Shown: positions 79 to 23,386 of the stretch, one piece after another
Layout: every line of letters starts with the position of its first letter
Numbering within the stretch: position 1 is the stretch's first letter
Virus record (IMG/VR): IMGVR_UViG_3300030331_005113
Location: 1 to 27,101 of that record
Direction: 5' to 3' (one strand)
Source: a virus
DNA: 27,101 nt
The notes under the pieces: model-generated
What the model was told of the DNA's origin: nothing
The model's database searches: none
The model's input: only the letters and a program-made list of their open reading frames with translations
Translations under genes and position numbers: made by a program

Positions 79-1392
79 TTATGTATCAAAATTCACTACA
101 AAAGTAGTATCCGTTTGAAGGGATATTGGTATAGGCCTTGATAATTTACCTACGGCAACCAATTGATATGCTTCATTATATAACCCTATTTGAGTTACAT
201 AAGGACTAAAAATAGATCCAGTAACAAAATCATAATATACTTCATTTGGATTTTCTTCAAATGTAGTAGCCATTAAATCTCCTACTGCAAATGTAATTGT
301 TACTGTGTTGTTACCCCCTATTAATGAACCCGGAAATGTTACTACATCTCCATAATTAAACCCTCTACCTGGACTTGTAGCTGTTATGGTAGATATTTTA
401 TTATCAGCACCTATTACTACGGTTAATATTAATCCTGACCCTTGCCCTGTTACTGTTGTTATTACTGAAGCTCCTGCTCCATTACCAATATTTGTATAAG
501 TACCTTGTACTGGTGATACATTTGTTATATCTGTAGAGGATAATAATGCATTTTCAGCTAATGATACTTCACCTGAAGGTCTAAGTGCTGATGGGTTTGT
601 AGTAAATGAAAACTCATTATCTCTAATTACACATTTATATTGATTTTCTCTTATTGTTATTGATGAGGAAAATTGTACTGATGATGAATTTATTTGAGAT
701 GTCATACTACCATCAGTACCTACTTGTGATCCTAATAATCTTAATTGACCAGGGTCATCTGGTCCTCCTGTTAATACTGCTATTCCCTGAGAATAAAATA
801 TTTGACCCACACTATGTGTTACACTAAATCCTCCTGCTGCATCTGTTTGCTGTGCTAGTAAATTCCCTTCACCATCATCTTTAACTAAACTATGAGTGAA
901 ATCAGATGATGTATACTCAAATTGAAATTGTTCACAAGGTATTTTTTCACCAAATAATTTAGATGGTATTGAAATAACTGAGGGACCATTTACAGCTGTT
1001 GATGCTGAGAATTGTGCAAAAAATCTCGATTGTGTAACTGATGATTGTAAAAAGTTATCAAATCTAGGACCTGTAGTTATACCTACATCTCTATTAAATT
1101 CTGTAGATGCCCCTGGTATTAAACTTTGGGTAGGAAGTTGATCACCTGTAGATGCCGTTAAAAAATTAGAGTAATATAATTGTTTAGCACTATTAAATAC
1201 TAATACTTTATCTAATACACTAGTAAACCCTGTTGGATTTGACCCTGAGGTATAGGGACCTTGTAAACCTTGATAATATTCAATCCCTACATCTGATGCA
1301 GAAACTTGACTACTGCTAAAATGAAATAATTTATTAGCTGAGAAAGGAGTTATTACTACCTCATTCGTATTAAATTGTTTGAATACTGCCAT
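79..1392 (-). CDS. Fibre-like virion structural protein with an inserted glycine-rich module
   Basis: This 437-residue protein is rich in Ser, Thr, Gly and Asn, has no signal peptide or membrane segment, and looks like a beta-rich tail fibre or baseplate-attached protein. Its last 40 residues (GLYNEAYQLVAVGKLSRPIP and onward) match the C-terminus of the 367-residue protein encoded just upstream, so the two genes are paralogous at least there. Residues about 287-356 form a module with GQGSGL, then GRGFNYGD, of the kind repeated in the 2858-residue protein. It lies between 'NEFSFTTNPSAL' (about 259-270) and 'EVYYDFVTG' (about 382-392), which in related phage proteins I recall as nearly adjacent; this suggests an insertion. 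The start ATG at 1392 follows the previous stop by five bases. The exact role is not known. Confidence 0.85.
   Translation of the reverse strand: MAVFKQFNTNEVVITPFSANKLFHFSSSQVSASDVGIEYYQGLQGPYTSGSNPTGFTSVLDKVLVFNSAKQLYYSNFLTASTGDQLPTQSLIPGASTEFNRDVGITTGPRFDNFLQSSVTQSRFFAQFSASTAVNGPSVISIPSKLFGEKIPCEQFQFEYTSSDFTHSLVKDDGEGNLLAQQTDAAGGFSVTHSVGQIFYSQGIAVLTGGPDDPGQLRLLGSQVGTDGSMTSQINSSSVQFSSSITIRENQYKCVIRDNEFSFTTNPSALRPSGEVSLAENALLSSTDITNVSPVQGTYTNIGNGAGASVITTVTGQGSGLILTVVIGADNKISTITATSPGRGFNYGDVVTFPGSLIGGNNTVTITFAVGDLMATTFEENPNEVYYDFVTGSIFSPYVTQIGLYNEAYQLVAVGKLSRPIPISLQTDTTFVVNFDT
320..510 (-). repeat. Glycine-rich GTG/GY-GD module in the 437-residue protein
   Basis: This stretch encodes a GTYTNIGNGAG opening, GQGSGLILTVVI in the middle and GRGFNYGDVVTF at the end. 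The order and spacing match the modules in the 2858-residue protein. It is a protein-level repeat; the DNA copies have diverged. Confidence 0.7.
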
Positions 1393-1397
1393 CCATC

Positions 1398-2501
1398 CTA
1401 GAAATCAAGTTTAACTCTTACTAGTAGTTCTTTAGTAAAATCTTTTTGTAATGGTCTAGATAATTTAGCTACTGCTAATAATTCTTGTGCCTCATTATAA
1501 AGTCCTACTGATGTAATAAAAGTTGTTGGGTTATCTATGAATGAATCGAATAATATTGCTCCAGTTGAGCTTGATATAAATGATGGATTAGATGAATAAT
1601 TATATTCTTGTGATTTTGCTCTACAGAAAATAAAATCAGATGATAAATCTTCTTTTGAATTTAGTGTAAATCCTTTTGTAGCTGTTCCAAATTTACCTGC
1701 TACACCTAAAGCATTTACTATTTTTGCTGAATTATCATCCCAAGATCCATTTGATCTACCTGTACCTAGAGCTATACCTCCATCTGCAGCTGCTCCATCT
1801 AAAGCTTCTCCACTTAAAATTAATAAATCTACGTCTGGTAAGATCCAGCCATATGATCCTGAATTGATTGTCCAACCATTAGCATCCATAGCTGTTGTAG
1901 CACCACCTGGTGTTATAACACCTGCCGAACCTGATATAATATTATAATATCTTCCTGCATCTGAGAATTGTGCTACTGTATTTACTTTACTATCATCTGT
2001 TAATACTAATTCAGCAGCGGATGTTGATATGTTCATTGTCCAAGTTCCTGGTAGTATAGACTGCTTATATCTTGCTCTTTCAATTGGTAAGCAATAAAAA
2101 TATGATGATGATTGATTTCCAAATATAAATGAAGCATTTTCATCACCTAATACTAAATTTCTATATGAACCATAATTTATTCTTGAAGGAGTAGTTCCTA
2201 CTACTAATGGATTTAATGGTGTACTACCACTACCTTTTATATCATTATAAGCTATATCAAATTGAATTGCTGCTGTTACACCTGTTGAAGCCGTTTGATA
2301 TACTTCAGTATAATATTCCTTAACAGCACTAGTTACTTGAGCTGAGCTTGTTTGAAATACTTGTAATGTTGGGGTATTATCACTCCACATTGCTGCAGTT
2401 ACAGAATCAGTACTTATTACTTTATCTGTGGCATCTAGTGGAATAAAAGCTCCTCTTAAACTAGCTATTGAAGTTGTTCTTGATGTTATTTCGTCTGCCA
2501 T
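1398..2501 (-). CDS. Fibre-like virion structural protein, paralogue of its downstream neighbour
   Basis: This 367-residue protein shares its C-terminal 40 residues (GLYNEAQELLAVAKLSRPLQ and onward) with the 437-residue protein that follows it. The composition is again Ser/Thr/Gly/Asn-rich with no membrane segment, as expected of a secreted-free, particle-bound beta structure. Unlike its paralogue it has no glycine-rich G-Y-x-x-G-D module, so it may approximate the uninterrupted form. A 'FDSFIDNPTTFITSVGLYN' element occupies the place of 'YDFVTGSIFSPYVTQIGLYN' in the paralogue. The start ATG at 2501 has the A-rich leader AAAAATATAAACT and no Shine-Dalgarno sequence. I infer a tail or baseplate fibre role from context; no enzymatic motif is visible. 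Confidence 0.85.
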   Translation of the reverse strand: MADEITSRTTSIASLRGAFIPLDATDKVISTDSVTAAMWSDNTPTLQVFQTSSAQVTSAVKEYYTEVYQTASTGVTAAIQFDIAYNDIKGSGSTPLNPLVVGTTPSRINYGSYRNLVLGDENASFIFGNQSSSYFYCLPIERARYKQSILPGTWTMNISTSAAELVLTDDSKVNTVAQFSDAGRYYNIISGSAGVITPGGATTAMDANGWTINSGSYGWILPDVDLLILSGEALDGAAADGGIALGTGRSNGSWDDNSAKIVNALGVAGKFGTATKGFTLNSKEDLSSDFIFCRAKSQEYNYSSNPSFISSSTGAILFDSFIDNPTTFITSVGLYNEAQELLAVAKLSRPLQKDFTKELLVRVKLDF

Positions 2502-2512
2502 AGTTTATATTT

Positions 2513-3196
2513 TTAAGATGTAGTTGTTGTTTTAGTTACTTGAATTGGAACTGACGCTCTTGCCCCTGAATCTAATCCTACTACTACCAAGGTAGCATAT
2601 AAAATATTATTAGATCCAAATAATGTATTAACTCCTGTAGCTACAATAGTACAACTAGTACCTATAACAGTTTGTGATGTTGAAGTACCATTTGTTATTG
2701 TTTGGTTTGCATTTTGTGTGGCTAATGCTCTTGCAGCTGCTGTAGCAACTCCACTACCAAAGAATTGTGAAGTAACTCTTACATCTGAAATTGTAAATGA
2801 ATATCCTGATGGTTCAAATTTTGTACCATTTAAATAATTTAAGGTTTCTGGGGTAATTGTTTCAGATGATAATTGTGGAATTTTTAGTAATGGTCCAATT
2901 CCTGATCCAGCTAATATAGGCATTTTAGCAGTTTGTCTTGGTAAAGTAACTAGTTTATACTTCATCATTTGTGCTTCATCTGGAAATGCTTCTAATAAAG
3001 GCATGTTTTCAATTGCTTCCCCATAAAAAGCCGATCCTGAAGGATGGTTTGGGTTGTATAGTGTATAATCTACTTCATCATCAGATAAAGCAAACTGTGT
3101 TATGTTAAAGGATCCATCACCTTTTGCAAGTAATTCTCTCCCTTTTTTAGTTAATATTGCATCAACCGTTATGATCTGATTATTTAAATATCCCAT
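2513..3196 (-). CDS. Conserved phage structural protein (AILTKKGRELLAKG type)
   Basis: This 227-residue protein opens with MGYLNNQIITVDAILTKKGR, followed by a 'LLAKGDGSFNITQFALSDDEVDY' element. I recognise this N-terminal signature from uncharacterised structural proteins of T4-like aquatic phages, where it usually sits among baseplate or fibre genes. The C-terminal third (NQTITNGTSTSQTVIGTSCT onward) is Thr/Ser-rich, probably beta-structured. It lies between the 2858-residue protein and the two paralogous fibre-like proteins. Its upstream gap of 72 bases is one of the few larger gaps in this region and holds a candidate late promoter, so it may begin a transcription unit. The leader before ATG (AACACAGTA) has no Shine-Dalgarno sequence. 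The molecular role is unknown. Confidence 0.85.
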   Translation of the reverse strand: MGYLNNQIITVDAILTKKGRELLAKGDGSFNITQFALSDDEVDYTLYNPNHPSGSAFYGEAIENMPLLEAFPDEAQMMKYKLVTLPRQTAKMPILAGSGIGPLLKIPQLSSETITPETLNYLNGTKFEPSGYSFTISDVRVTSQFFGSGVATAAARALATQNANQTITNGTSTSQTVIGTSCTIVATGVNTLFGSNNILYATLVVVGLDSGARASVPIQVTKTTTTS

Positions 3197-3206
3197 TACT
3201 GTGTTA

Positions 3207-3224
3207 TTTTATTTATAAATATAT
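3207..3224 (-). promoter_or_regulatory. Candidate late promoter, copy A
   Basis: The minus strand reads ATATATTTATAAATAAAA and contains TATAAATA, the exact T4 late promoter box. It lies in the gap before the 227-residue gene, 13 bases ahead of its ATG when counted from the end of TATAAATA. If the T4 spacing holds, the leader would be only about eight bases. A gp55-like sigma factor encoded in the same window makes late-promoter use plausible. Such strings also occur by chance in AT-rich DNA. Confidence 0.5.
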
Positions 3225-3268
3225 AATTTTTTAATTTCCATTCCAAGCTATAGTAAATATTCTACATC

Positions 3269-6200
3269 TTATGATGAAGTATTATCACTACTTGGGAATG
3301 CGTTTTTAGCTCTTAATTGGTTTATAATATTAAGTGCATTTTCTTTTTGTTGTAATGTTAAGTCATTAGGTATAATGTACCCACCACCAGATTGAGTTTC
3401 AACTCCTCTTGATCCTGTAGGTGCTGTTATATTTCTAATCATTACTCTATTATCTTGTTCTACTTCTCTTCTTACTGTAAATTTAGTAATAGCCCCTCCT
3501 GCTAATCCATTTAATGCTACTAATGGATCAGGTGTTACCTTTAAGAATGTAGGTGTAACAGTTTCAATTGCTCCCTGTGTTTGTTGTCTATATCTTTCTG
3601 TACCACCATTCCAACATTGATCATCTACTTTTAGTGTAAATCCTGTAGCTCCAAAAGCTCCTCCTCCTTGAACATTAGCAGATGATAGTGTAAGTGTTAC
3701 TGCACCAGTAGTACTTCCAAATGCTGAGGCATCTAAAGTTGCATCTGTTATTGTAATTGTATCTCCAATTGCATAACCTGTTGATGTACCTGTTGTTAAA
3801 AATGCACTATCAATAGAAACAAAGAATTTACTAGTTGCTGTTGATGTTAGTGTTACTGATCCACTTACACCTGCTCCACTTGTTTGAAATGCATCATTAT
3901 TTGGGTTTGTTGCATTAAATGGGAATGTTACACTAGTTGCATTTGCAGTAGTACGGAAAATATCTATTACTCCAGCAGAATTATTTATAAATGCTCCCCC
4001 AGTTACAGTAGTTGCTGAGGCTGAATTTCTAAAGTTTTGTACTTCTTCTACTGTAAAATCTTTACTAAATTTTAGTGATTGGGATGGTTCGCCATTTGCA
4101 ATAAATACTTCTCTTAATCCTTCTGCTCTTATTACATCACCCCTATTTATTAAGAATGGTTCTTGATAATCTTGATAATTTAAACAATTAGAACCTGATG
4201 GATACCATGAATAATAATTATCTTTATCTCTTGGGTCTAATCCACTTTTAATCCACACTGTTGATTGTGATATAGGATTTATTAAACATGTAGGATCTTG
4301 TCTTGTAGATCCACTTTCTACTAATTTATTATAAGTATGATATAATGCTAATTGTGGGCCTGCCATTTCTAATCTATACTCACTAGGAATTTCTACTTCA
4401 CCTGCTGATGAAGTAGCAAATGGTAAAAACTGATTTCCTGCATTTGCTATGCTTTCTACTTCAACTTGTCCACTAGTAACACCTGTTACATCACATACAT
4501 CTCCAACAGCATAACCAGATCCTCCAGCATCTAATGATATAGTAGCCATTCCATCACCACCAGTAAGAGTTAAAACATTTATTCTTAATCCACTTCCTTG
4601 ACCACCTGTAGTATTTTTTACTCCTGTAGATCCACCATTACCTGCTGCTTTTATAGAAACAGAAGTTACAGCACCTGTTTGTTCTTGGAATGTGTTACTA
4701 CCACTTAATAAGAATCCATTACTTTGTACTGGTGTTCCTCCTACCTCTGTAATATTACTAGCTGTTACCATTTGAATAGTTCCTGGGGTATCAAATTGTA
4801 CTCCTGCAGCAAATGATGATGAAACTGGATCTCCAGCTAATTGATATTGATATTGAAGAGATTCACTTGCAAAGTTTCTAGCATTAGAATTTATTGTTTT
4901 AAATACAGTAGCTGAATTTAATATTTTAAAGGGACCTGCTCCTAAAGCTCCATATTGAATGCCATTAAATGTTATTTCATCAAATGTCATTTGTAATTGT
5001 CTATTTGGTTCAAATATACTTGCTACGAATTTTTTATTTTCATTATCACCTCTAACTTCAATTGAATTAGGAGTTATTTCTTCTCCTGCAATTGACTCCA
5101 TTGGGATTTCAATTAATTGATCAATATTAAATTGCATTGATTGATAAAAATCAGTTGGTGAAAATGAAGTTTGGAAATGAGCTATGTATTGTGGGTTTTT
5201 ATTAATACATGAGGTTTGTCCATAAGATAAATCACCAGTGTAACTACCAGTTGCACCATCAAGGAATTCTTCAGCTACACTTGAAGAATAACCATATCCT
5301 ATATTATAAGGAGCCGTTGGTTGAGCTTGAATAGGTCCTACTGTTCCTGAAGGTGTAAAGAAATTATAATCTAAACTTTTTAATTTACTACCTCTATATC
5401 TAGGTAAAGTATATGCCTGTTGTGTATAATTACTATCTTCTAAAATTGCTGGGTTAGGTCTACTAGCTGATGGGCTTGTATTATCATATGACCATGTTAC
5501 TACTGTATCAAATTCAGTTGGTTGGTCTTGTGATTGATCATAAGTTAAAGCATATCTAAAACTACTTGATCTTTGGGGCATTATAAAATTATTCAGTGGA
5601 TTGTAATCTGAATTATTAAATAGTATACTTTGTGTGTTTAATATTTGAAATTGATCCTGTTGTAATGGATTAAAAAATATTGGAGCTACTTGTTTATCAA
5701 ATTCACCACCAACACCCTCAACTTTAAAATTAGTTAAAGTTGCTTCAATGCCAATTCCAGCTTGAAGTGATAATGATTGATAATCTAATGGGGCATCTGG
5801 AGTAGGGAATGCCATAAATGAATGAGATACTACAAAGTTACCTGTTGATGATAAAGAAATATTACCAGCATTAGTTAAAGTAATTTCTCCACCTGAAGAT
5901 CCATCATTTCCTAATACTCTTAATACATCTCCTTGTTGATATCCTGTTCCATTTGTTGCTATTGTTGAAAAACCTGATATTTGTCCAAGAGAAACTACAA
6001 CATTTAATGTTAACCCCGTTCCTATACCTGTTATTGGTGTGGTAGGATAAGTTCCAGCAACATACCCAGAACCTACAGATGTTACTGAAAATGCATTTGC
6101 CTGACCTGTTGCGTTTCCAAACCCAGCACCATTTCTTACATTAACCCCATCTTGTATACCAAATGAAGATAACCCTACAGGATTACCAAAATCATTTACA

Positions 6201-9200
6201 GTACAATTCATATCAAACGTAACTAAATAATTTTGTAATGGGATTAGAGATTGACTAGCTGCAAATTCCATTCTTGCACCAGTTATTGTTCCTGATTTTG
6301 TATCTATTGTTACACCATTAGATGTAAAACTTGAAAATGCATTACCTGTACCACCAGTTTTACTTTGTGAAGCAAATGTTGAAAAATTAACAATAGGTAG
6401 ATCTTCCTGGAATGCAGCTGATGATGTTGAGTTTTTAGGAACTCTAGCATATGGGTTGTAAGGACTTACATATGATGATGAATATGCAAATGTATTAAAA
6501 TTACTACCACTTAATTCTCCCGTATAAAATTGTTCTTGATTGTCAATAAATGATGATGTAATTGTTCCTAATGTCGTTACTTGATTTGCAAAAAATCCTT
6601 GTTGTGACATTGGTAAATTAATTGATGCAGAATTAACTAATGGAGTCCCATCATATAAATTAAATATATCTGCACTATTACCAAATGATACTACTGCTTG
6701 ACCTCCATCATTTTCTATTTCTGCTGCACCACCAAATGTAACAAATAATCTTAATCTTTCGCCTGGGTGCATTTCTGCATATACAATTTGAGTTCGGAAC
6801 CTATCTGTAAATAATAATTGTCCCGGAGGATTAGCTGATGAAATTCTATCTGCAGCTGTATAGATTAAACCTCTCTTATCTGAATATATTTCAACTGTAA
6901 AATCAGTTGTTGGGTTACTTGCAAATTTTGGGTTCCAATATAATGGAGTTCTTAGTGATTTTTCAACTGTAAAGAATGGACCATCATCTACATCAGAGGT
7001 ATTAGCATTACCAAACAAATCAACATGAACATTTGTATTAGCTGCATCTAATAGGAAAAAAGAACCTGCTCTATATAATAAGTTTGTTCGTACTCCTGCT
7101 CCAAATGTTACATTAACAGCTGGACCATCAAGTTGAAATAGTACAGATCCTGTTTCTAAAGTATTATATTGGTTATAAGGACCACCGGCACCACCATCAA
7201 AATCAACTATTACAGATTGTGAGTAAATTGATCCTGATAGCATTAAGTTTTTATATGTTAAAGGAACGTTAGTCGTAGCGTAGGACTGTGTAGTCACTAT
7301 GTCCATTTGTGGCTCTCGGTACCTGTTACGTTCTAGTAAATTTTGTTTTATTACAATACCTGTAGACACACTTGTACGAGCAGGTACATAGTTCTTAATA
7401 GCTCTAAATAATGAATCATCAAAATATTTTATTAATCTTATATATGCATAAGGATCACTACCTATATATTTTTTAAAGTAATCATCTGCAATTTTTCTTA
7501 AACCTGGATAGACATCATCTGAGGATGATCTAAATCTAGGATCTGCTATTACTTCTTGTATAGCACCAAAACCTAATGATTGAATTATATCATCATCAAT
7601 TTCTGAAGTAGGTGAGAATGCTACTTCTAATGTATTAATATTTTCAGTATAACTTTGACTTATAAATGGATCTTTTTGTATACTTACTTGGTTTGATAAT
7701 ACATTACCAAAATTTAAATTACTTGTAGCTTGTATTTTACTAGAAATTCTATTTCTAATTCCTATTGCAGGTTGGTCTAAGAAGTATGTTTCTGTGTTGG
7801 TTTCACTAAAAGTTCTTACTGTAGGGTTTTGATATTGTATCCAACTATATCTATCGTAGGTATCTAAAGCCGTATCAATAAATGAAGCTGTTATAAATTC
7901 AGGTGCTGAAGCTGTAACTGCTGGGTGTGAAGATGTTAAAAATGTAGTTACATCTGATGATGTTACACCTTGTGATGCTGTAAAGAAATTTTCTAATTCA
8001 TTACCTAATGGTGCTCTAAAGTTAACTATATCAAATGATGATTCTGACCCTGTTATAAAATTACCTTCAATTGATTCTGGGTTCATTACAAAATCATTAA
8101 ATACAGATTCACTTATATCATGTGAATAATATCTAAATTCTTGGAATGACCCAGAAAATATTTTTCCTGGTTCTTGTGCTAGGAAATTATTAGTTCCTAT
8201 ACTTGCTATTTCAACTCCAGTTAATGCTCCTCCTATGTGAACCCCATCTGGTTCATTTATACCTCCAAATGTATTCCATGCTTTATTAATTGATGAAGAA
8301 ATATAAGTACCATATACTGCTGATCCATATAAACCAGACCCATAAATTCCTCCTGTTCCTTCTACACCAGTATTTATACTAGCTGACCCTTCAAATCCTA
8401 TACTATTACCATCATTACCATCATATAATTTATTTTTAGCAAATAAAGTATAAGTAGTTGGTTGACCATTATCTCCATTAGCTAAATCAGCTGCTGTTAA
8501 TACTATTGCAGCTGCGTCAGAAGTAGCATTAATATCACTTGCTTGTAATGTTATAGTTATTTCTTCTGAATTAGCTGATATTGCTGTTGACGGAACAGAT
8601 ACATTTACTGCTGAGTTTCCTACTACTGCATTTTGTGCAATTTGAAATGTACAATTTCCAGCATAATTAAACCCTGGTTGGAGTACTGTAACTTCAGCTG
8701 GTAGTGTATTTGGTACACTAACTGTAAATTGAATTTGTAAGTTATCTCCATCTGTACCTGCTGTTTGAGTTAAAGTACCACCTGATGTATCTTCATAAGT
8801 GTAAGTTCCTACTGGGAATAATGAACCTGCACCTGCGTATGATAATGGGGTTTCTAAAGGACCAATTACTGTTCCCCCTCCTAAAGCACCTGCTGTTATT
8901 CTTACTTGATTGCCAGTTGCATAACCTGATCCTGCTGTATCTACTGTAATACTAGTAATTCCACCTTGATCATTTGTTACTACGTTAACATCTCCTCCTG
9001 TACCTGTACCTGTTACTGTATTTAATGGAACTGATGGGTAATTACCTCCACCATTTGGACCTGGAAATCCCGCTGTAGTGTATGTTCCAGCAGGTATGGT
9101 AATTGAACCTACTGCAATTGTAGGTGCTAATGTTTGTGATCCTAAAGCACCAGCTGCTATATTTAATTGATCATTTAGTGCATATCCCGTTCCTGTTTTT

Positions 9201-11845
9201 GTTAATGTTATTTCTGTAATAGAAACTGGGTCTGGAGTACCCGAACCTGATTGAGCACAAACTATAGTAGCAAATGCTCCTGTTCCAGTACCACCAGTTA
9301 AAGGAACATTATTATAAGTACCAGCTGTACAATCTGTTGGGTTTGAATTTGCACCTACTCCTGAATTTAAAGTGGCTAGTAAGGAATTAAATTCTGAACT
9401 TAAACCTACTGCATTTGGGTGTTTATCTCTTTGTACTAATACTGACCACCAACCTTCATCAAAGAAAGGTAAATAAATATCCTCTGATTTTGCGAGCCCA
9501 CCATCTAAAGCAGAACCAGACATAATTAAATTCATTACACCATATTGATAAAAATCACTGTTACCAGATCCGGAATATGATCCTGATTCTGATCCTGTCC
9601 AAAATAAATTTACTGTCCAGTCAAATTCATTATCTGCAGCTCCATTAGATTTTTTAGCTATTAATGACTGGCTATAATAATTTCCATCAAAAGATGATGA
9701 AGGGTGTCCTGTTGTTTTAAATCTAAACCCAACTCCATCAGGTACAATAAATGAACCAGATTCTGCAATATGATTTCTATTTAATGGTAACCAAGGTACT
9801 ACTATAGATGAACTCGCATTATAAGAATCTGCTACGGGTTTAAATGCATAACTATATCTATTATACCATAGATCATAGTCATCTGTTTGATCTTTGTCCT
9901 TACCACCAAATTCATTTATTCTTAATATTGTACTTGGTATCCCCCAAATATTAATTAATTGTCTTAATCCTGCAATTGTTCCTTTTTTCTTAACAAGATA
10001 AGCCATATTATGATAAAGACGTTTATATATTTCTTTACTTACCTTATCAATAGGGTATGGGAAACCTGATGTTTCTAATTGTTGTACATAATCTAAGAAT
10101 GAATAATTAGGATTCCAGTAATTAGCTATTTGACCGTTGTTAATAGCAATATATTGAGTAATTAATTCACTACCTGTTGGAGGAACGTATACACCATTAT
10201 CTTCACCTGTTAAACCTATAAAATTATCTTGATTATTAAAATTATTTCCAAAACCAGCGTAACCTAAAGATGTAATAACATCATCAGCTAATGACAATGG
10301 AACTCCCTTATCTAATTGATTTGTAGTATTTAATTTTTCAGTTACTGCTTTTGTATACAACCACAATTCATCAAATGATTGACCAGCCATATTTATGAAA
10401 TCTATATATCTGTCATTATCCCCATTTTCTCTGATAAATTCAGGGACTGTAAAATATAACCAATTTTGATTATCAAAATCATATAAAGAGGCTGTTAGTA
10501 AAGCTCCACCATAATATTGACTATTTTCTACATCACTACCTAACCAAGTTAATGCTTCTACAGAACTAGTAGATAATAATTCAAGGGGAAATTTAGATCC
10601 TGTTTTAGGATATGTATCTGATCCTGTATTATAATATTGGTAATATTCAAATCCATCAAAATTAGCTATTTCATTTTCTATTTTTGTATATAAAGAAGCT
10701 ATACTAGATGATATTTGAGTTACATTAGAATTTGAACCTGTTGTTACACTTAATGCAGTTATATCTGCCTCAAAAGCTTGTATATTACTTACTTTTTCGT
10801 AGAAATTTTGTACTCTAGATTTTGCTGATGAAAAGTTAACAAATTCATCAAATGAACCTGTAGAATAATTAGGTGTTAAAGTAATACCATCACGTTTTAA
10901 TTTATTTAATACCTGATCTTTTGAGCTAGAGGATTGTGTATTTAATAATTCATCTTTATTTTTATAAGTAGTTGAATTATTTATAAAATCCTTTATTTTA
11001 AGGTTAGTATTTGGTCCTCTTAATTGTATTAAATCATCTATATTACCTAAATCTTCTATAAAATCTACTTTATATGCTTTACTTTCTGCGGTTTTAGTAG
11101 CTATATATAATTCATCTAATAATTGATATTTTAAAGGTAATGGATCGAATAATTTTATTAAAATAGAATTTTGTTGATCTTCACTATCTTGGGGTGGTAT
11201 TGATAATAAAACATTAACTCCTATATGATATTCATTTTCTCCAAATGAAACATAAAACTCATCGAAAAATTCTGCTTGTTCTAATTTTCTAGCTAATGAT
11301 AAGTAACCACTTCTTATTTCATTATTTGTTTGGAAATTTGATTTTAATCTAATTTCTGTTCTACTAGGTGAAATTTCTGATAGATAAAAAGGATTATCTA
11401 TAGAAGAACTTAATTCATAATTAACAAAATTATAAACACCATATAAAATACCTTGTGTATAGCCTGCATTATATATATCTTCTTCTGGGGATAAAGATAT
11501 TGTATCTGTTGTTGTTTGAAATTGAGTAGGGTCGTTTTTTTCAGACTCATACGAATTTACTCTTTCATATAAATTAGTATTAGTAGTACGTGGTTCTGAT
11601 ACTTTACCAGCTGGGGATGCTCCTGGTGTGTTATTTGATATTATAGAATAATTGGAAAAATTATAATCAGAATATTGAACTACTTTATTAGCATCATATA
11701 TATAAAACTCTATGTTATTTAAATCCTGAGTAAAAGACCCAGAAAATTGTTCCATAGGAATTACTTTTTGATCTTGTAATTCAAATCCATCAGCAGTTAA
11801 TTCTGATGGTTCAATTTGTGATATAGATGATGATATTGATATCAT
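3269..11845 (-). CDS. Giant modular tail/baseplate protein (2858 residues)
   Basis: A single open frame with no sign of frameshift encodes a very large virion protein. Visible regions in order: a baseplate-like N-terminal part with 'WLYFTVPEFIRENGDNDRY' (about 458-530); 'KRLYHNMAYLVKKKGTIAGL' followed by 'INIWGIPS' (about 606-647), which recalls the tail-tip gpI family of P2-like phages; a LamG/concanavalin-like fold (about 683-810 and 1128-1240) apparently split by three glycine-rich modules; a segment with 'YFKKYIGSDPYAYIRLIKYF' and 'YVPARTSVSTGIVIKQNLLE' (about 1438-1513); a jelly-roll-like region split by another module near 1917-1983; further modules near 2387-2455 and 2658-2728; and a C-terminus with 'IPNDLTLQQKENALNIINQL'. 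Its place after gp25 and gp6 fits a gp7-like wedge or tip position. No catalytic site is visible. The leader ATTAAAGTAAATT has no Shine-Dalgarno. Structural role likely, exact homology uncertain. Confidence 0.9.
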   Translation of the reverse strand: MISISSSISQIEPSELTADGFELQDQKVIPMEQFSGSFTQDLNNIEFYIYDANKVVQYSDYNFSNYSIISNNTPGASPAGKVSEPRTTNTNLYERVNSYESEKNDPTQFQTTTDTISLSPEEDIYNAGYTQGILYGVYNFVNYELSSSIDNPFYLSEISPSRTEIRLKSNFQTNNEIRSGYLSLARKLEQAEFFDEFYVSFGENEYHIGVNVLLSIPPQDSEDQQNSILIKLFDPLPLKYQLLDELYIATKTAESKAYKVDFIEDLGNIDDLIQLRGPNTNLKIKDFINNSTTYKNKDELLNTQSSSSKDQVLNKLKRDGITLTPNYSTGSFDEFVNFSSAKSRVQNFYEKVSNIQAFEADITALSVTTGSNSNVTQISSSIASLYTKIENEIANFDGFEYYQYYNTGSDTYPKTGSKFPLELLSTSSVEALTWLGSDVENSQYYGGALLTASLYDFDNQNWLYFTVPEFIRENGDNDRYIDFINMAGQSFDELWLYTKAVTEKLNTTNQLDKGVPLSLADDVITSLGYAGFGNNFNNQDNFIGLTGEDNGVYVPPTGSELITQYIAINNGQIANYWNPNYSFLDYVQQLETSGFPYPIDKVSKEIYKRLYHNMAYLVKKKGTIAGLRQLINIWGIPSTILRINEFGGKDKDQTDDYDLWYNRYSYAFKPVADSYNASSSIVVPWLPLNRNHIAESGSFIVPDGVGFRFKTTGHPSSSFDGNYYSQSLIAKKSNGAADNEFDWTVNLFWTGSESGSYSGSGNSDFYQYGVMNLIMSGSALDGGLAKSEDIYLPFFDEGWWSVLVQRDKHPNAVGLSSEFNSLLATLNSGVGANSNPTDCTAGTYNNVPLTGGTGTGAFATIVCAQSGSGTPDPVSITEITLTKTGTGYALNDQLNIAAGALGSQTLAPTIAVGSITIPAGTYTTAGFPGPNGGGNYPSVPLNTVTGTGTGGDVNVVTNDQGGITSITVDTAGSGYATGNQVRITAGALGGGTVIGPLETPLSYAGAGSLFPVGTYTYEDTSGGTLTQTAGTDGDNLQIQFTVSVPNTLPAEVTVLQPGFNYAGNCTFQIAQNAVVGNSAVNVSVPSTAISANSEEITITLQASDINATSDAAAIVLTAADLANGDNGQPTTYTLFAKNKLYDGNDGNSIGFEGSASINTGVEGTGGIYGSGLYGSAVYGTYISSSINKAWNTFGGINEPDGVHIGGALTGVEIASIGTNNFLAQEPGKIFSGSFQEFRYYSHDISESVFNDFVMNPESIEGNFITGSESSFDIVNFRAPLGNELENFFTASQGVTSSDVTTFLTSSHPAVTASAPEFITASFIDTALDTYDRYSWIQYQNPTVRTFSETNTETYFLDQPAIGIRNRISSKIQATSNLNFGNVLSNQVSIQKDPFISQSYTENINTLEVAFSPTSEIDDDIIQSLGFGAIQEVIADPRFRSSSDDVYPGLRKIADDYFKKYIGSDPYAYIRLIKYFDDSLFRAIKNYVPARTSVSTGIVIKQNLLERNRYREPQMDIVTTQSYATTNVPLTYKNLMLSGSIYSQSVIVDFDGGAGGPYNQYNTLETGSVLFQLDGPAVNVTFGAGVRTNLLYRAGSFFLLDAANTNVHVDLFGNANTSDVDDGPFFTVEKSLRTPLYWNPKFASNPTTDFTVEIYSDKRGLIYTAADRISSANPPGQLLFTDRFRTQIVYAEMHPGERLRLFVTFGGAAEIENDGGQAVVSFGNSADIFNLYDGTPLVNSASINLPMSQQGFFANQVTTLGTITSSFIDNQEQFYTGELSGSNFNTFAYSSSYVSPYNPYARVPKNSTSSAAFQEDLPIVNFSTFASQSKTGGTGNAFSSFTSNGVTIDTKSGTITGARMEFAASQSLIPLQNYLVTFDMNCTVNDFGNPVGLSSFGIQDGVNVRNGAGFGNATGQANAFSVTSVGSGYVAGTYPTTPITGIGTGLTLNVVVSLGQISGFSTIATNGTGYQQGDVLRVLGNDGSSGGEITLTNAGNISLSSTGNFVVSHSFMAFPTPDAPLDYQSLSLQAGIGIEATLTNFKVEGVGGEFDKQVAPIFFNPLQQDQFQILNTQSILFNNSDYNPLNNFIMPQRSSSFRYALTYDQSQDQPTEFDTVVTWSYDNTSPSASRPNPAILEDSNYTQQAYTLPRYRGSKLKSLDYNFFTPSGTVGPIQAQPTAPYNIGYGYSSSVAEEFLDGATGSYTGDLSYGQTSCINKNPQYIAHFQTSFSPTDFYQSMQFNIDQLIEIPMESIAGEEITPNSIEVRGDNENKKFVASIFEPNRQLQMTFDEITFNGIQYGALGAGPFKILNSATVFKTINSNARNFASESLQYQYQLAGDPVSSSFAAGVQFDTPGTIQMVTASNITEVGGTPVQSNGFLLSGSNTFQEQTGAVTSVSIKAAGNGGSTGVKNTTGGQGSGLRINVLTLTGGDGMATISLDAGGSGYAVGDVCDVTGVTSGQVEVESIANAGNQFLPFATSSAGEVEIPSEYRLEMAGPQLALYHTYNKLVESGSTRQDPTCLINPISQSTVWIKSGLDPRDKDNYYSWYPSGSNCLNYQDYQEPFLINRGDVIRAEGLREVFIANGEPSQSLKFSKDFTVEEVQNFRNSASATTVTGGAFINNSAGVIDIFRTTANATSVTFPFNATNPNNDAFQTSGAGVSGSVTLTSTATSKFFVSIDSAFLTTGTSTGYAIGDTITITDATLDASAFGSTTGAVTLTLSSANVQGGGAFGATGFTLKVDDQCWNGGTERYRQQTQGAIETVTPTFLKVTPDPLVALNGLAGGAITKFTVRREVEQDNRVMIRNITAPTGSRGVETQSGGGYIIPNDLTLQQKENALNIINQLRAKNAFPSSDNTSS
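3660..3870 (-). repeat. Glycine-rich module in the 2858-residue protein, copy f
   Basis: It encodes SVTLTSTATSKFFVSIDSAF, then GTSTGYAIGDTITITDATLD. The G-Y-x-x-G-D element and the following short hydrophobic strand match the other modules, but the first half is less typical, so this is the weakest copy in the protein. Confidence 0.55.
4470..4690 (-). repeat. Glycine-rich module in the 2858-residue protein, copy e
   Basis: It encodes GGQGSGLRINVLTL followed by GGSGYAVGDVCDVTGV. Both the opening G-x-G and the closing G-x-G-Y-x-x-G-D elements are present with typical spacing. Confidence 0.7.
5895..6090 (-). repeat. Glycine-rich module in the 2858-residue protein, copy d
   Basis: It encodes GTYPTTPITGIGTGLTLNVV and then GTGYQQGDVLRVLGNDGSSG. 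This is one of the clearest copies. It lies between residues that together look like one carbohydrate-binding-type jelly roll. Confidence 0.75.
8615..9330 (-). repeat. Three consecutive glycine-rich modules (copies a, b, c)
   Basis: Copy a (about 9139-9330) carries GTYNNVPLTGGTGTG and GTGYALNDQLNIAAGALG. Copy b (about 8880-9095) carries GTYTTAGFPG, TGTGTGGDVNVV and GSGYATGNQVRITAGALG. Copy c (about 8615-8815) carries GTYTYEDTSGG and GFNYAGNCTFQIA. Copies a and b share the AGALG ending and nearly the same DNA there (plus strand CCTAAAGCACC), which suggests a tandem duplication. Confidence 0.75.
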
Positions 11846-11853
11846 AATTTACT

Positions 11854-12732
11854 TTAATATTTAGGTGTTCCTGGGTTAATAACTCCACTATTATCAGTTC
11901 CTCCTAAACCAGATCCTCCTGGTAATGGATCTCCTCCTGTTCCTTGTTGGAAAGCATTAGTAAAACCAAAAGTTACTCCTGGGATGCCGCCTCCGCCGCC
12001 TCCACCGCTTCCACCGCTTCCACCACCTTGAGATGGAAGTGTATTTCCTGCACTATCAATTCCTAAACCTGAGCCTACTAAATCACTACTTGAATTGGAT
12101 TGTTCTGCTCCTAAATTGGCTTCTTGTTCTAATAAATCTTCTAAATTAGCCCCTTCACCTGATTGTCTAATTGCTTGATCTAATGTTGTTTTAACCCCTA
12201 ATAATTCATTTATATCTAATTGTAATTGCAAATTTTCTTCTCTTAATTCTACTATTTCTTCTAATAAAGCATCTATTTGTTCTTGATTTTCTATAACTTT
12301 AGAATACTCTGTACTTTCAAGTACTAAAAATTCATGAGAATTAGTTTCTCCATATTTTGGTATTTGAAAAAATAGATTTTGATATATAGTAAAAAAGTCT
12401 CCTACAGTAGCCAAGTTAGGATCAAAAAAGCTTAAATCAGGGGGTAATTGATCTAATTCTGAAAAATTAGTATCAATAGTATTATTAAAGGCTACTTTAT
12501 CAAAAACATCTCTATTTAATACTAAAGTTTCATCATTTTGGGTACCTCTAAAATTAGTAGCTGGTAGTTTAAACCCTTCTTTAGTAAGAGATATTATATT
12601 TTGAGGTTTAAGTCGTGATTGTAAGTCACTTAATAAGCTAGACTGGGGTTTAGTAGTAGCACTCAAAGGTTTAGTAATAGCCTTTGATACTGATGGGGTT
12701 GATTTAGTATTTGTGCTTACTCCGTATGCCAT
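11854..12732 (-). CDS. Coiled-coil structural protein with a glycine-linker tail
   Basis: This 292-residue protein has a Ser/Thr/Lys-rich N-terminus, a globular middle, a strong coiled coil at about 144-188 (EEIVELREENLQLQLDINEL), and a disordered tail with a run of Gly and Ser at about 235-249. The shape suggests a homo-oligomeric (perhaps trimeric) connector between the DNRLRE-like protein encoded before it and the giant tail protein encoded after it. Its ATG overlaps the preceding stop as TAATG, so it is probably translationally coupled. I do not recognise a named family; the role is inferred from coiled coil and position only. Confidence 0.8.
   Translation of the reverse strand: MAYGVSTNTKSTPSVSKAITKPLSATTKPQSSLLSDLQSRLKPQNIISLTKEGFKLPATNFRGTQNDETLVLNRDVFDKVAFNNTIDTNFSELDQLPPDLSFFDPNLATVGDFFTIYQNLFFQIPKYGETNSHEFLVLESTEYSKVIENQEQIDALLEEIVELREENLQLQLDINELLGVKTTLDQAIRQSGEGANLEDLLEQEANLGAEQSNSSSDLVGSGLGIDSAGNTLPSQGGGSGGSGGGGGGGIPGVTFGFTNAFQQGTGGDPLPGGSGLGGTDNSGVINPGTPKY
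11986..12027 (-). repeat. GC-rich glycine/serine codon repeat
   Basis: The plus strand reads GCCGCCTCCGCCGCCTCCAC and continues with two CCGCTTCCA units. On the coding strand this is a run of GGT, GGA, GGC and AGC codons giving Gly-Gly-Ser repeats. It is far more GC-rich than its surroundings and is a likely site of slippage length variation. Confidence 0.8.
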
Positions 12733-14606
12733 TATCCATTTATTACTTTAAACATTATATCTTCATCAAATATTTGAGTAGTACCATCTAATTTTGTTTT
12801 AATTAGTATAGTATAAAATCTTTCTGGTTCTAAACCATTCATATACACATCAAAATAACTAGATGTTGAATCAGCACTAATTTGAGTATATGTGTCATCA
12901 AATTCAATTACAAACTCATTTGTATCAGTATCTTTTATTGCATATGAAGATGAGTTTTCTGGTAAATAAAAATTTGTTGTATACAAAGAAGCTGTTTGGA
13001 ATACTACATCTGGGTATTTTGGTATAGCTGCAATTCTAAATCTAGCTACACTTCCAGAATAATAAGTACCATCATTATTATATACTGACATAAATGATTC
13101 TTGTGAACCTAATATTTTATTATTTGAAGATCCAGTGTCAAAATAATAATCATTCCACTTCATATTTAATAGTGGAGGATAAATTGTATTTGTATCAATT
13201 GAAAAATACCTGAATGTAGCAGTTGTATTTAGATTATTTACAAATTCTTTAGAACTTGATTGTTTAACTATTAACCCATCATTAGGGAAACCTTTAGCAG
13301 CATCAACTAATGAAGCTGTGTACCAGTTTTTTACTATATTAGTTATATCAACTTTAAAATCTACATCATTACCATATGAAAATGTTTTTCCAAGTTCTAT
13401 ATCTAATCCTAAAGCTGACCCTGTATACCAATTTCCTCCCCCAGCGTCATCTGATGATGAAAAGGAAGCAGTAGCAAAATCTCCAAAAGTTCCTGTGGTT
13501 TGCCATGTTACAGCTCCATCAGCAGCTGATCCAGAATAATTTCTAAATATCCAACTACAACCATCTGTTGTAACTGGGTTGTTGGCAAATTTACCTGTTC
13601 CCATATTCCAGCTACCTGAGACTGCATATACTTTTAAGCGCTGATCCATTCCTAAACCTGTAACTACTGCTGCAGAATTTAATAATTCATATTGTGCTTC
13701 TCTATCATGCCAATTAGATGATGAAACTGCAGGAGATGATAAGGTTATTGTTATATTATCTGAAAGTGGGTGTTCTCCAAATGATTCCGATTTAAATACT
13801 AATGTATCTCCTGCATTATAACCAATACCATAGGGTTGTATTGCTCTTATAACATCAACAGTTGTTACTAAATCATCAGCTCCAATTTGAAAATAAAAAG
13901 TATTATTAGGATATGCTTGATCAAATGTAAATACACCTGCTCCTACTGTTGAGTCAATTGCTGCAGGTGTTAAATAAAGATCTTTATTACTTAAATATGA
14001 AAAATAACCTTGGCTTACATATGATGCAGATCCATTATTTACTATAGGTGCTGATATTACTTTATTATCCTTAACTACTAAATTTATTGAGGCACTTAAA
14101 GAAGATGTAGTAACAGTATTTTCTACATCATCAGTTGATACAATAAAAGGGCCATAAGTACCATTATTTGCTGTAAATGTAGGAGTAATTACTAAATCAT
14201 CAACTATGTCTCTATTTGGTATAAAATAAGACCCATTTAATCCTATTTCAAATTTTTGACCTCTACCCGTACCTGTTGAAGATGAAGGTATTAAATCAAT
14301 TTCAATATTACCTACACCATCAGAAGATGTAGGATAATTAGGTCCAGCTGCCATTGTTTGGTCAAATAAAAAATCTGATTCTCCTAGATTAGTATTTAAT
14401 ACTGTAACTCCTGATCCCGAGATATATGTTGTTACAAAATTATTAATTTCGGTTTGAGAAAATTGCATTAAATATCTACTAACTTGAGGTTTAGTATCTT
14501 GTATAGCAGTAGATGCCTCTAAAATTTCATCTAATCCAGTATTCATACTTTGAGATATAGTATAAAGTGAAGAATCTTTTGAAGGAAAAATTTTATATAT
14601 TGCCAT
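12732..14606 (-). CDS. DNRLRE-like virion structural protein
   Basis: This 624-residue protein begins MAIYKIFPSKDSSLYTISQS and continues to a 'RYLMQFS' strand. From about 296 it has features I associate with DNRLRE-type beta sandwiches: 'VYAVSGSWNMGTGKFANNP', 'DITNIVKNWYTA' (about 417-430), 'LIVKQSS', and 'TIYPPLLNMKWNDYYF' near 475-495. The last 40 residues look like a small immunoglobulin-like strand pair. The two halves of the sandwich are separated by about 230 residues (roughly 66-295) that include a G-Y-N-A-G-D module. It follows gp6 in the operon and precedes the coiled-coil protein, so I infer a tail or baseplate periphery location. The leader (AATAAAAAGAAATT) lacks a Shine-Dalgarno sequence. 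Confidence 0.85.
   Translation of the reverse strand: MAIYKIFPSKDSSLYTISQSMNTGLDEILEASTAIQDTKPQVSRYLMQFSQTEINNFVTTYISGSGVTVLNTNLGESDFLFDQTMAAGPNYPTSSDGVGNIEIDLIPSSSTGTGRGQKFEIGLNGSYFIPNRDIVDDLVITPTFTANNGTYGPFIVSTDDVENTVTTSSLSASINLVVKDNKVISAPIVNNGSASYVSQGYFSYLSNKDLYLTPAAIDSTVGAGVFTFDQAYPNNTFYFQIGADDLVTTVDVIRAIQPYGIGYNAGDTLVFKSESFGEHPLSDNITITLSSPAVSSSNWHDREAQYELLNSAAVVTGLGMDQRLKVYAVSGSWNMGTGKFANNPVTTDGCSWIFRNYSGSAADGAVTWQTTGTFGDFATASFSSSDDAGGGNWYTGSALGLDIELGKTFSYGNDVDFKVDITNIVKNWYTASLVDAAKGFPNDGLIVKQSSSKEFVNNLNTTATFRYFSIDTNTIYPPLLNMKWNDYYFDTGSSNNKILGSQESFMSVYNNDGTYYSGSVARFRIAAIPKYPDVVFQTASLYTTNFYLPENSSSYAIKDTDTNEFVIEFDDTYTQISADSTSSYFDVYMNGLEPERFYTILIKTKLDGTTQIFDEDIMFKVING
13735..13940 (-). repeat. 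Glycine-rich module in the DNRLRE-like protein
   Basis: It encodes a strand-rich stretch ending in YGIGYNAGDTLVFKS and DNITITLS. The G-x-G-Y-x-x-G-D element matches the modules of the giant protein; the opening G-T-G element is weak here, so the copy is divergent. Confidence 0.55.
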
Positions 14607-14618
14607 AATTTCTTTTTA

Positions 14619-16481
14619 TTATAATGGTACTACTCTACCTTTTATATCCTGATTTGGGTTTTTTAATTCAAATATCATTGGGTCAATAGATGGATAAATT
14701 ACGTTATCTACTTCAGCTCCACTTACATCATATGAAAAATCACTATATCCTAAACTAGTACCAGCTAAATTAACTATTTCAACATTTTGTACTGTTTGAA
14801 CTCCTTGTACCTTATCTAGTAAAATAAATAAATCTTTTATTAAAATGGGTTGATTTATTTGCCATTTACTTATATCAAAATAATCAGTTATGGAATCTAT
14901 ACATTTAGTAATAGTTTCACTATTATTAAAATTAGGAGCTACTATAATATCAAAATTGACCCCAATATTAATTATGTAAGCATCCTTTATAAGAATAGAA
15001 TCATTTATCATTCTGAATTCTGATAAATAAGTTTGTAAATTTCTTTTTAATAATGAAGATGCTGTTCTTAATTTTTTATTTATATCATAAGATAAAATAT
15101 ATAAACATAATACAGTTGGTAACTCACCTGCTTGATAATCTCCTATTTTTTGAGGTTCAGCGTGTGCTTTAGCTATAACACCCAGATTAGCAGGCATTGA
15201 TAAAGCTCTAACTAAATAATCTTGTGTTGTTACAGTTCTTAATTGGTTTTGAAAATTACCTAAAGCATTTTGTCTAATTTCTTCAACAGTATCTCCATCC
15301 ATTCCCCCATCAGCTGCTAATTCATTATTAGTAGCTACAGAATTAAATATTTGATTAGCTAAAGAAGTATTTGATAAATTAGGATTTATAAATTTAATAT
15401 TAGTATCATCAATTTGGGTTAATGAGCCTGCTTCTACATTAGCTGCTGCTCCCCCACCAGTTAAATATCTTACTGATAATGTTGTATTAAATGGAGCTAT
15501 TCCATAAGTGTTTGTGAATACAAAGTTAACAGGTGAAAATGCTGTAGTTAATTTTGTTTTTTCAAACGGTAAACCTAAACCTACATTATCTGGGTTAGGA
15601 ATAATTTCTTCTGTTGTAGATTGAGTACTACCAGCCCCAAATTGTAATTGTAAAGAGCCTGAGTCTAAAAAACGAGTTGCAAATCTTCTTTGTACTGTTT
15701 TTAATTCTAAAATATAAGGTACTTCAGTATCTATACTGTAATTGGGATCATTTACATTAGTATTTCTAATTGAATTAAATATATTTTCTTGTGCTAAATT
15801 AGGAACTTCATACCATTCATTACCATTAGTATCAACACAATCTAAAACACCTACTATATTAGCTGCTCTAATTGTTCTTGTATCAAATTTTATTGCATTA
15901 GTAAATGTAAAACTTTCTGTATTAACAGTAGCTGATATAGCTTTTCTTGTCTTTTTTAATAAATAAAATGTTGGATTAATTCCTGATATTTGATATACAG
16001 ACACTGTTGTTGGGTCTAAAGAACTAGAAGCTGAAAAGTCGATAGCATCTTCTATTATAAATTTTTGAGTACTATTTGTGTTTGAAGTTATTTGTGTATT
16101 TTCTGGTATTATTAAGGAATAATCAAAATCAGGTACATAAACACTACCACTTAATATAGCTGGTACTTGTTGAAAAAAATCAATATCTACCGTTGCTACT
16201 GTTGTTACTTTTGGAACATAACCTAAGGAATAGGCTAAAGCATATAAATTTGTAGTTTGTCTAGCTTTTTGTATAAAAGTTTCTTGGATTTGATTATCTA
16301 AATAAAAAGATAAAACATCACCTACATAAGCTGCCATTTCCATAAATAACATACCAGTTGATGTTTCAGTAAAATCGTTAAACGTATTAGGAAAATACGT
16401 TTTAGAATATTGTATAAGGGAATTTCTAAGTGTATTAAAATCCCTATCAATATATCTTATGTCTCTTTCTAATTTAGCCAT
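14619..16481 (-). CDS. Baseplate wedge protein, gp6-like
   Basis: This 620-residue protein matches the T4 gp6 / P2 J-like wedge family that forms the inner ring of the baseplate. The N-terminus has 'RDIRYIDRDFNTLRNSLIQY' and a typical 'GMLFMEMAAYVGDVLSFYLDN' element (about 43-63), followed by 'QKARQTTNLYALAYSLGYVP'. The middle contains 'DGDTVEEIRQNALGNFQNQL' and 'TQDYLVRALSMP', which are characteristic of the baseplate J-like core. Length is close to that of T4 gp6. The ATG overlaps the stop of the gp25-like gene as TAATG, the conserved gp25-gp6 order. I see no truncation. The family assignment is firm; the exact contacts are inferred from T4. Confidence 0.92.
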   Translation of the reverse strand: MAKLERDIRYIDRDFNTLRNSLIQYSKTYFPNTFNDFTETSTGMLFMEMAAYVGDVLSFYLDNQIQETFIQKARQTTNLYALAYSLGYVPKVTTVATVDIDFFQQVPAILSGSVYVPDFDYSLIIPENTQITSNTNSTQKFIIEDAIDFSASSSLDPTTVSVYQISGINPTFYLLKKTRKAISATVNTESFTFTNAIKFDTRTIRAANIVGVLDCVDTNGNEWYEVPNLAQENIFNSIRNTNVNDPNYSIDTEVPYILELKTVQRRFATRFLDSGSLQLQFGAGSTQSTTEEIIPNPDNVGLGLPFEKTKLTTAFSPVNFVFTNTYGIAPFNTTLSVRYLTGGGAAANVEAGSLTQIDDTNIKFINPNLSNTSLANQIFNSVATNNELAADGGMDGDTVEEIRQNALGNFQNQLRTVTTQDYLVRALSMPANLGVIAKAHAEPQKIGDYQAGELPTVLCLYILSYDINKKLRTASSLLKRNLQTYLSEFRMINDSILIKDAYIINIGVNFDIIVAPNFNNSETITKCIDSITDYFDISKWQINQPILIKDLFILLDKVQGVQTVQNVEIVNLAGTSLGYSDFSYDVSGAEVDNVIYPSIDPMIFELKNPNQDIKGRVVPL

Positions 16482-16888
16482 TATTGTATTAATATATTTA
16501 AATTATCTGTTACTCCTAAATTTATAATTTCATATGTAAGAGTAAAATTAACTTCATTCCTATCGGGGTCATTATTAAATTGTAATTGTTGTACAACTAC
16601 ATTTGGAAACAATATAGCAATGTCTGATTGTATTTTTGTTTCTAAATCTTCCATTGTAGAATCTACTATATTTTCAAATAATAAATTCCTTAAATTAGCC
16701 CCAAAATTAGGTCTAAATACTCTTTCTCCCTTATTTGTTAGCAAATAATTTAACAGATTTGCTTTTGTTTGCTCCCTGGTTGTAAACGTAGGTATAAATA
16801 CAGCATCCCCATCTAGTGGGAAACCAAATCCAACTGCTCTACTAGGTTGGAGATCTATAGGATTTTTACTTTGTATTAACCTTGCCAT
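16481..16888 (-). CDS. Baseplate wedge protein, gp25-like
   Basis: This 135-residue protein belongs to the gp25/lysozyme-like baseplate family found in contractile tails and type VI secretion, where it joins the wedge to sheath and tube initiation. The family motif is visible as GERVFRPNFG at about 54-63, followed by 'LRNLLFENI'; the C-terminal strand pair 'VNFTLTYEI' is also typical. Length is normal for the family (T4 gp25 is 132 residues). Despite the family name it is not expected to be an active lysozyme. It precedes gp6 with a TAATG overlap. The leader GTAAATAAAAATA lacks a Shine-Dalgarno sequence. Confidence 0.92.
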   Translation of the reverse strand: MARLIQSKNPIDLQPSRAVGFGFPLDGDAVFIPTFTTREQTKANLLNYLLTNKGERVFRPNFGANLRNLLFENIVDSTMEDLETKIQSDIAILFPNVVVQQLQFNNDPDRNEVNFTLTYEIINLGVTDNLNILIQ

Positions 16889-23286: not shown

Positions 23287-23312
23287 TTTTAATATATTTA
23301 GGTATAAGTTAG

Positions 23313-23386
<74 letters not shown>

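Follow-up and report, generated by a model that had tools for sequence, protein, structure and literature searches.

Tailed phages are known to carry Ig-like domains that are optional, occur in unrelated virion proteins and are exchanged horizontally (Fraser et al. 2006, cited in the accessible part of PMC9230969), and the same source proposes a weak interaction of these domains with the cell surface. The survey of tail sheath proteins in the accessible part of PMC9230969 likewise calls most of the extra domains Ig-like. Here we describe a glycine-rich module of about 65 to 80 amino acids that resembles the phage Ig-like domains in that the same domain is found in several unrelated virion proteins, and in that orthologues of these proteins exist with and without it. 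It differs from them in having no Ig sequence match and a weak structural match, and in being nested in-frame inside loops of its host proteins. As with the extra sheath domains, a copy in the gp18 sheath protein of S-PM2 (residues 209-292) precedes the conserved subtilisin-like core; neither the module nor its sharing with other virion proteins is described in the accessible part of the sheath survey. A search of the open full-text literature gave no description of the module either.

The window, by which we mean the whole stretch of 27,101 bases analysed here, is the entire IMG/VR record IMGVR_UViG_3300030331_005113, and the record is itself a fragment. It holds a contractile-tail region on the minus strand, starting with a baseplate wedge gene at 16481-16888 (minus strand, phrog_261/phrog_43), which we take to be gp25-like from gene order, and continuing with a gp6-like wedge gene at 14619-16481 (minus strand, phrog_219). 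Thereafter follow, in minus-strand order, genes for proteins of 624, 292, 2858, 227, 367 and 437 aa. The three module hosts of the original prediction are all present and on the minus strand: the 624-aa protein (12732-14606), directly downstream of the gp6-like gene in reading direction, the 2858-aa protein (3269-11845), a large baseplate or tail protein, and the 437-aa protein (79-1392). Annotated relatives of the 2858-aa protein were found in Flavobacterium phage immuto, Microcystis phage Mel-JY01 and one uncultured phage, and many closer relatives were taken from IMG/VR. The region has some further features: a tandem 9-base repeat at 11987-12028 encodes a stretch of glycine and serine towards the end of the 292-aa protein, and a tRNA-Ala (TGC) at 23312-23386 and an ATP-dependent DNA ligase gene at 24005-25270 are located close to the tail region.

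Eight copies, here named M1 to M8, had been proposed in these three proteins. Leave-one-out HMMs, where each profile is built without the tested copy and locally shuffled window proteins serve as controls, recovered five copies at 10-25 bits (M1, M2, M4 and M5 of the 2858-aa protein, M7 of the 437-aa protein), and 0 of about 1,400-1,800 hits in the shuffled controls scored as high. We further compared 90-residue slices with a 45-copy alignment by hhalign, for which 82 non-module slices of the same proteins set a null ceiling of at most 6.5% probability. The five recovered copies are firm. M1 (9101-9331, minus strand, residues 839-915) reached 16.3 bits with 0 shuffles as high and an hhalign probability of 98.6%, and M2 (8843-9094, minus strand, residues 918-1001) reached 21.7 bits and 98.5%. 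M4 (5858-6061, minus strand, residues 1929-1996) scored lowest with 10.2 bits and 92%, and also matches phrog_438. M5 (4433-4639, minus strand, residues 2403-2471, in an inserted stretch of about 2385-2466) scored 16.2 bits, and M7 (274-510, minus strand, residues 295-373 of the 437-aa protein) 25.3 bits.

The remaining three copies were missed by the leave-one-out HMMs. Two of them are divergent and supported by hhalign, namely M6 (3674-3898, minus strand, residues 2650-2724 of the 2858-aa protein; 93.6% and 93.8%) and M8 (13728-13955, minus strand, residues 218-293 of the 624-aa protein; 86-95%). The expectation that an HMM built from some copies should find the others therefore held in part: an HMM of the firm copies had no significant match to M6 or M8, but a deeper profile finds both. 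An iterated profile search of relatives, covering 1,739 of their open reading frames, collected 72 copies. The 56 proteins that carry them are without exception orthologues of the 437-, 367-, 2858- and 624-aa proteins, and shuffled controls stayed at E of at least 0.1. M3 (8594-8815, minus strand, residues 1011-1084 of the 2858-aa protein) is unsupported; it failed three tests, with an hhalign probability of 0.6-2%, and what speaks for it is limited to its tandem position and residue register. The 624-aa protein has a likely further copy, not listed before, around residues 150-205 (13992-14159, minus strand), where hhalign gave 25.6% and then 62-72%.

With 16.8% Gly and 15% Thr in the inserts and low pairwise identities, one might ask if the similarity is a mere by-product of a glycine/threonine-rich composition. 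The shuffled controls, which never reach the firm copies, and the low ceiling of the 82 non-module segments make this very improbable; it is refuted for M1, M2 and M4-M8 and possible for M3. The module is thus real and the seven window copies are of common sequence ancestry, so that the original observation was largely right, for seven of eight copies plus one likely extra.

AlphaFold2, applied to the copy of the 437-aa protein with 45 relatives, predicted a compact domain built of five beta strands and a short helical turn (pLDDT 83.6 and pTM 0.71 for M7). The structure model of the 624-aa protein has a confident scaffold and an insert with a mean of about 55; the divergent M8 keeps the strand order and spacing of the modelled module, as a common fold would demand, but at a confidence of only about 55-60. 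Among viral structure models the module matches cyanophage structural proteins at a probability of 1.00, with a best E of only about 0.004.

Could the module belong, as a divergent member, to one of the known Ig-like, Big or S-layer families? The domain is all-beta, the best structural match in a second look was to the Sap S-layer domains of Bacillus anthracis, which is weak (VIA Z 2.3-2.7), and one BFVD match is named Ig-like domain-containing. Against this, Foldseek found no relative in the PDB at E <= 0.001, and none of the 45 copies had a significant match when scanned against Pfam and NCBIfam, Ig and Big models included. A PDB sequence search with the module yielded no credible match, returning chance-level antibody light chains (E >= 0.019) over a short GSGSG stretch. 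Carbohydrate-binding-module profiles matched a single copy of 45, to CBM_X2 at E 0.0078, which is chance level. Membership in a known family seems accordingly quite unlikely, and would in any case be compatible with the function we suggest below. The profiles phrog_6005, phrog_438, phrog_460, phrog_4406 and phrog_5342 do contain the module and match up to 31 of the 45 copies; each of these families stands for a whole protein (head, gp8, gp14 or fibre) and does not describe the module. It appears to be an unnamed domain family in the libraries searched, although its behaviour is of a known kind.

The module had been thought of as one shared, optional unit inserted into several virion proteins, and this is borne out by module-less orthologues for all three hosts. 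Comparing orthologues with and without it, we found the inserts to be clean in-frame cassettes between conserved flanks. In the 2858-aa protein, the block with M1-M3 (8456-9412, minus strand, residues 812-1130) lies between WSVLVQRDKH and TTYTLFAKNK; it is present in the relatives L030 and L031 and missing in 12 orthologues that fall outside the nearest clade. The domain that hosts this block has a ConA/LamG-like look, of which we make no claim. M5 is absent in L030 between NGFLLSGSN and FLPFATS, where the flanks are 73% identical and the protein overall is 79% identical, while another relative (L052) holds a different module in the same loop. An alignment by eye of the DNA around the M5 insert gave no obvious repeat pointing to a mechanism. 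M4 is 41% identical to its L030 counterpart; with the preceding 150 residues divergent as well (60%), a replacement of M4 alone cannot be claimed from this comparison. One orthologue of the 2858-aa protein (L040:9884-18049) has at about residues 2083-2222 a Hint/intein-like domain (PT-HINT 2e-6, above cut-off; Intein_splicing 2.9e-5), and none was seen in the copy of the window.

In the 437-aa family M7 lies as a clean insert between NPSALRPSG and YYDF...FSPY, present in 18 orthologues and absent in 24, and in the family tree the carriers form one clade of 18 with a single gain. As judged from this tree, M7 is one old gain inherited by the 18 orthologues.

In the 624-aa protein the insert at site A (13707-14420, minus strand, residues 63-300) is absent from orthologues of 350-400 aa. 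Several dozen orthologues of 345-420 aa carry no module. One copy, around residues 90-161, is present in the orthologues of 479-491 aa, and those of 624-648 aa have, at the same site, the larger insert seen in the window; five orthologues of 864-870 aa have an additional copy at a second site. One contig with an extra site-B module (L077) was left out of the key evidence, as it ends inside the gene and may be chimeric. In a tree of the scaffold only, three changes are required to explain presence at site A, each of them forced by well-supported branches; a single clade of all carriers was rejected (AU p = 0.0024). The simplest reading would be repeated gain at site A, because the deepest branches are without the module; gain with later losses is the alternative.

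The scaffold of the 624-aa protein (residues 1-62 and 301-485) matches the chondroitin-sulphate-binding structure 8wab with Z 17.2 and an rmsd of 2.7 (171 of the 178 residues aligned). For the Mel-JY01 orthologue, Pfam gave a match to CBM96 at E 5.5e-5, narrowly short of the cut-off. Therefore the site A insert sits inside a carbohydrate-binding-module-like domain. The likeness to CBM96 and 8wab is to the host of the insert and not to the module, and glycan binding by the scaffold is putative. A PDB sequence search with two host scaffolds gave nothing useful.

A further suggestion had been that the high copy number reflects active spread within this genome, and this the data do not support: the window copies are mutually only 29-45% identical and the copy in the 437-aa protein is an old, inherited gain. 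Even the best pair of copies in different proteins of one contig (L053) is 53% identical. Recent copying inside this genome is thus not shown; the sequences show instead a turnover of copies between related phages, the relationships within the window being old. The GC3 of the inserts is 0.03-0.07 vs 0.10 for the gene, and their codon usage matches that of the gene.

The copies diverge much faster than their scaffolds. Identity in the 437-aa family is 0.31 for the module vs 0.61-0.80 for the scaffold, and in one clade of the 624-aa family it is 0.48 for the insert vs 0.85 for the scaffold. The conserved columns comprise a GxGxG turn, alternating hydrophobics, a glycine and a tyrosine found in 96% of copies, and a GD turn; these positions are structural only, the remaining ones vary freely, and no conserved candidate binding site was seen among the module columns. 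Lys+Arg make up 1.2% of the inserts of the 2858-aa protein vs 6.4% of the rest of the protein. The mean Lys+Arg content over 45 copies from many phages is 3.3%.

These observations bear on the possibility that the module is a structural stabiliser that reinforces subunit contacts in the manner of cement proteins and makes no contact with the host. A compact, glycine-rich, Lys/Arg-poor beta domain would suit such a role, as would its placement in neck, sheath, hub and head proteins and the retention of one old gain in 18/18 orthologues of the 437-aa clade. But single copies are missing in close relatives, the same loop has changed state repeatedly in the 624-aa family, and the copies diverge rapidly with no conserved surface. 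The faster divergence relative to the scaffold would fit an exposed domain better than a fixed cement interface, and we consider the stabiliser unlikely.

Judging from profile matches, the module is not limited to tail proteins or to this virus. In marine T4-like phages its carriers range over sheath, neck, hub, wedge, fibre and head proteins. Complete isolate genomes with matches are S-PM2 (12), MED4-213 (10), Syn9 (9), S-CAM1 (9), S-TIM5 (3), P-SSM2 (2) and HTVC008M (2), while the profile search found no module in T4, immuto, Mel-JY01 or LR756508. A tblastn search of annotated phages with a consensus-like module gave no match, because the module is too divergent for BLAST and profile searches are needed. 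Besides the gp18 sheath, the carriers in S-PM2 are gp5, a head protein, gp8 (weakly) and giant wedge or fibre proteins; with the profile mapped to genes, the module was not found in S-PM2 gp13, gp14, gp15, tube or terminase. The S-PM2 copies lie at residues 577-631 and 1214-1266 of a 3048-aa protein, at 2335-2393 and 3115-3183 of a 3338-aa protein, and at 338-389 of gp8. Syn9 carries it in the neck protein gp14, gp8 and two large proteins. Residues 22-191 of Syn9 gp14 match the neck core, and residues 206-307 are the shared module, which matches wedge, fibre and head families. HTVC008M carries it in gp8 and gp055. The latter (L158:8436-11486) is labelled as head closure Hc2, is located between gp6 and gp8, and has a match to the gp14 family phrog_460 that is confined to profile positions 220-362, where the shared module lies; its neck label was probably carried over by the module.

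One genome scan also found the module in two bacterial proteins. The first, from Acetobacter lambici (L160:3611-5038), is a Mu-type tail sheath (phrog_165, 3.9e-32) with the module at about residues 113-193, and represents a second sheath lineage with an insert. The second, a giant protein of Mucilaginibacter rivuli (L159:2-8158), has about eight copies. By eye, these copies alternate with Big_2-like stretches, none of which was named by Pfam.

A distribution this wide could also arise if the module were a near-neutral passenger, a self-folding domain that spreads with little harm and has no selected function. The unrelated host proteins, the occurrence inside bacterial proteins and the presence or absence among near relatives are all as such a passenger would have it. 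Yet compact phage genomes hold ten or more copies, the fold has long been retained at one position with only structural residues kept, and the module is absent from the tested tube, gp13, gp15 and terminase proteins. We therefore find the passenger improbable, a little more so than the stabiliser.

We rather suggest, with somewhat more confidence than doubt, that the module is an insertion-tolerant and rapidly evolving accessory domain on the virion surface which behaves like the Ig-like domains, adhesion being its likely function. It would constitute a single family of small five-strand beta domains that fold on their own, where the glycines, one tyrosine and the alternating hydrophobics hold the fold, and would be inserted in-frame into loops of virion proteins with the scaffold undisturbed. 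Recombination may exchange copies between phages at such tolerant loops, and copies may be kept where they face outward on the particle. There they would serve as an accessory decoration, weakly adhesive or shielding, with exposed residues free to vary; in this virus the decoration would be found on baseplate and tail proteins, one of them built on a carbohydrate-binding-module fold. Shuffled surface decoration, as first proposed, is accordingly a reasonable reading of the module.

Surface exposure is what the insertion sites and the tolerance of the loops would imply. Weak adhesion is then the most likely role by analogy with the phage Ig-like domains, and we favour it because other carbohydrate-binding domains are present in pelagimyophage baseplate regions (PMC7029224). 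Counting against adhesion, the module is also found in gp5 and gp14, two proteins with no obvious contact to the host, and the single gain and stable retention in the 437-aa family are compatible with a structural role as well. As described in the accessible part of PMC9910659, S-PM2d grown in a chemostat changed repeatedly in gp8 and in two giant proteins, 3048 and 3338 aa long; these are the lengths of two module-bearing S-PM2 proteins, the mutations being known by protein and not by module position. A published evolution experiment has in this way already altered proteins that match module carriers. Further, we speculate that an undescribed domain family circulates among several marine phage lineages and bacterial surface proteins and re-enters the same loops, giving one virion related and rapidly evolving patches from head to baseplate that would form a modular layer for adhesion or disguise and tune host contact; this wider picture is tentative, and we are more inclined to doubt it than to hold it.

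If the interpretation as accessory surface decoration is true, many of the large unknown structural proteins of marine T4-like phages would be partly explained as scaffolds with optional copies, and database labels carried by the shared module, such as the neck label on HTVC008M gp055, could be corrected. Phage surfaces would then change by gain, loss and replacement of cassettes in fixed loops, and not through the receptor-binding protein alone.
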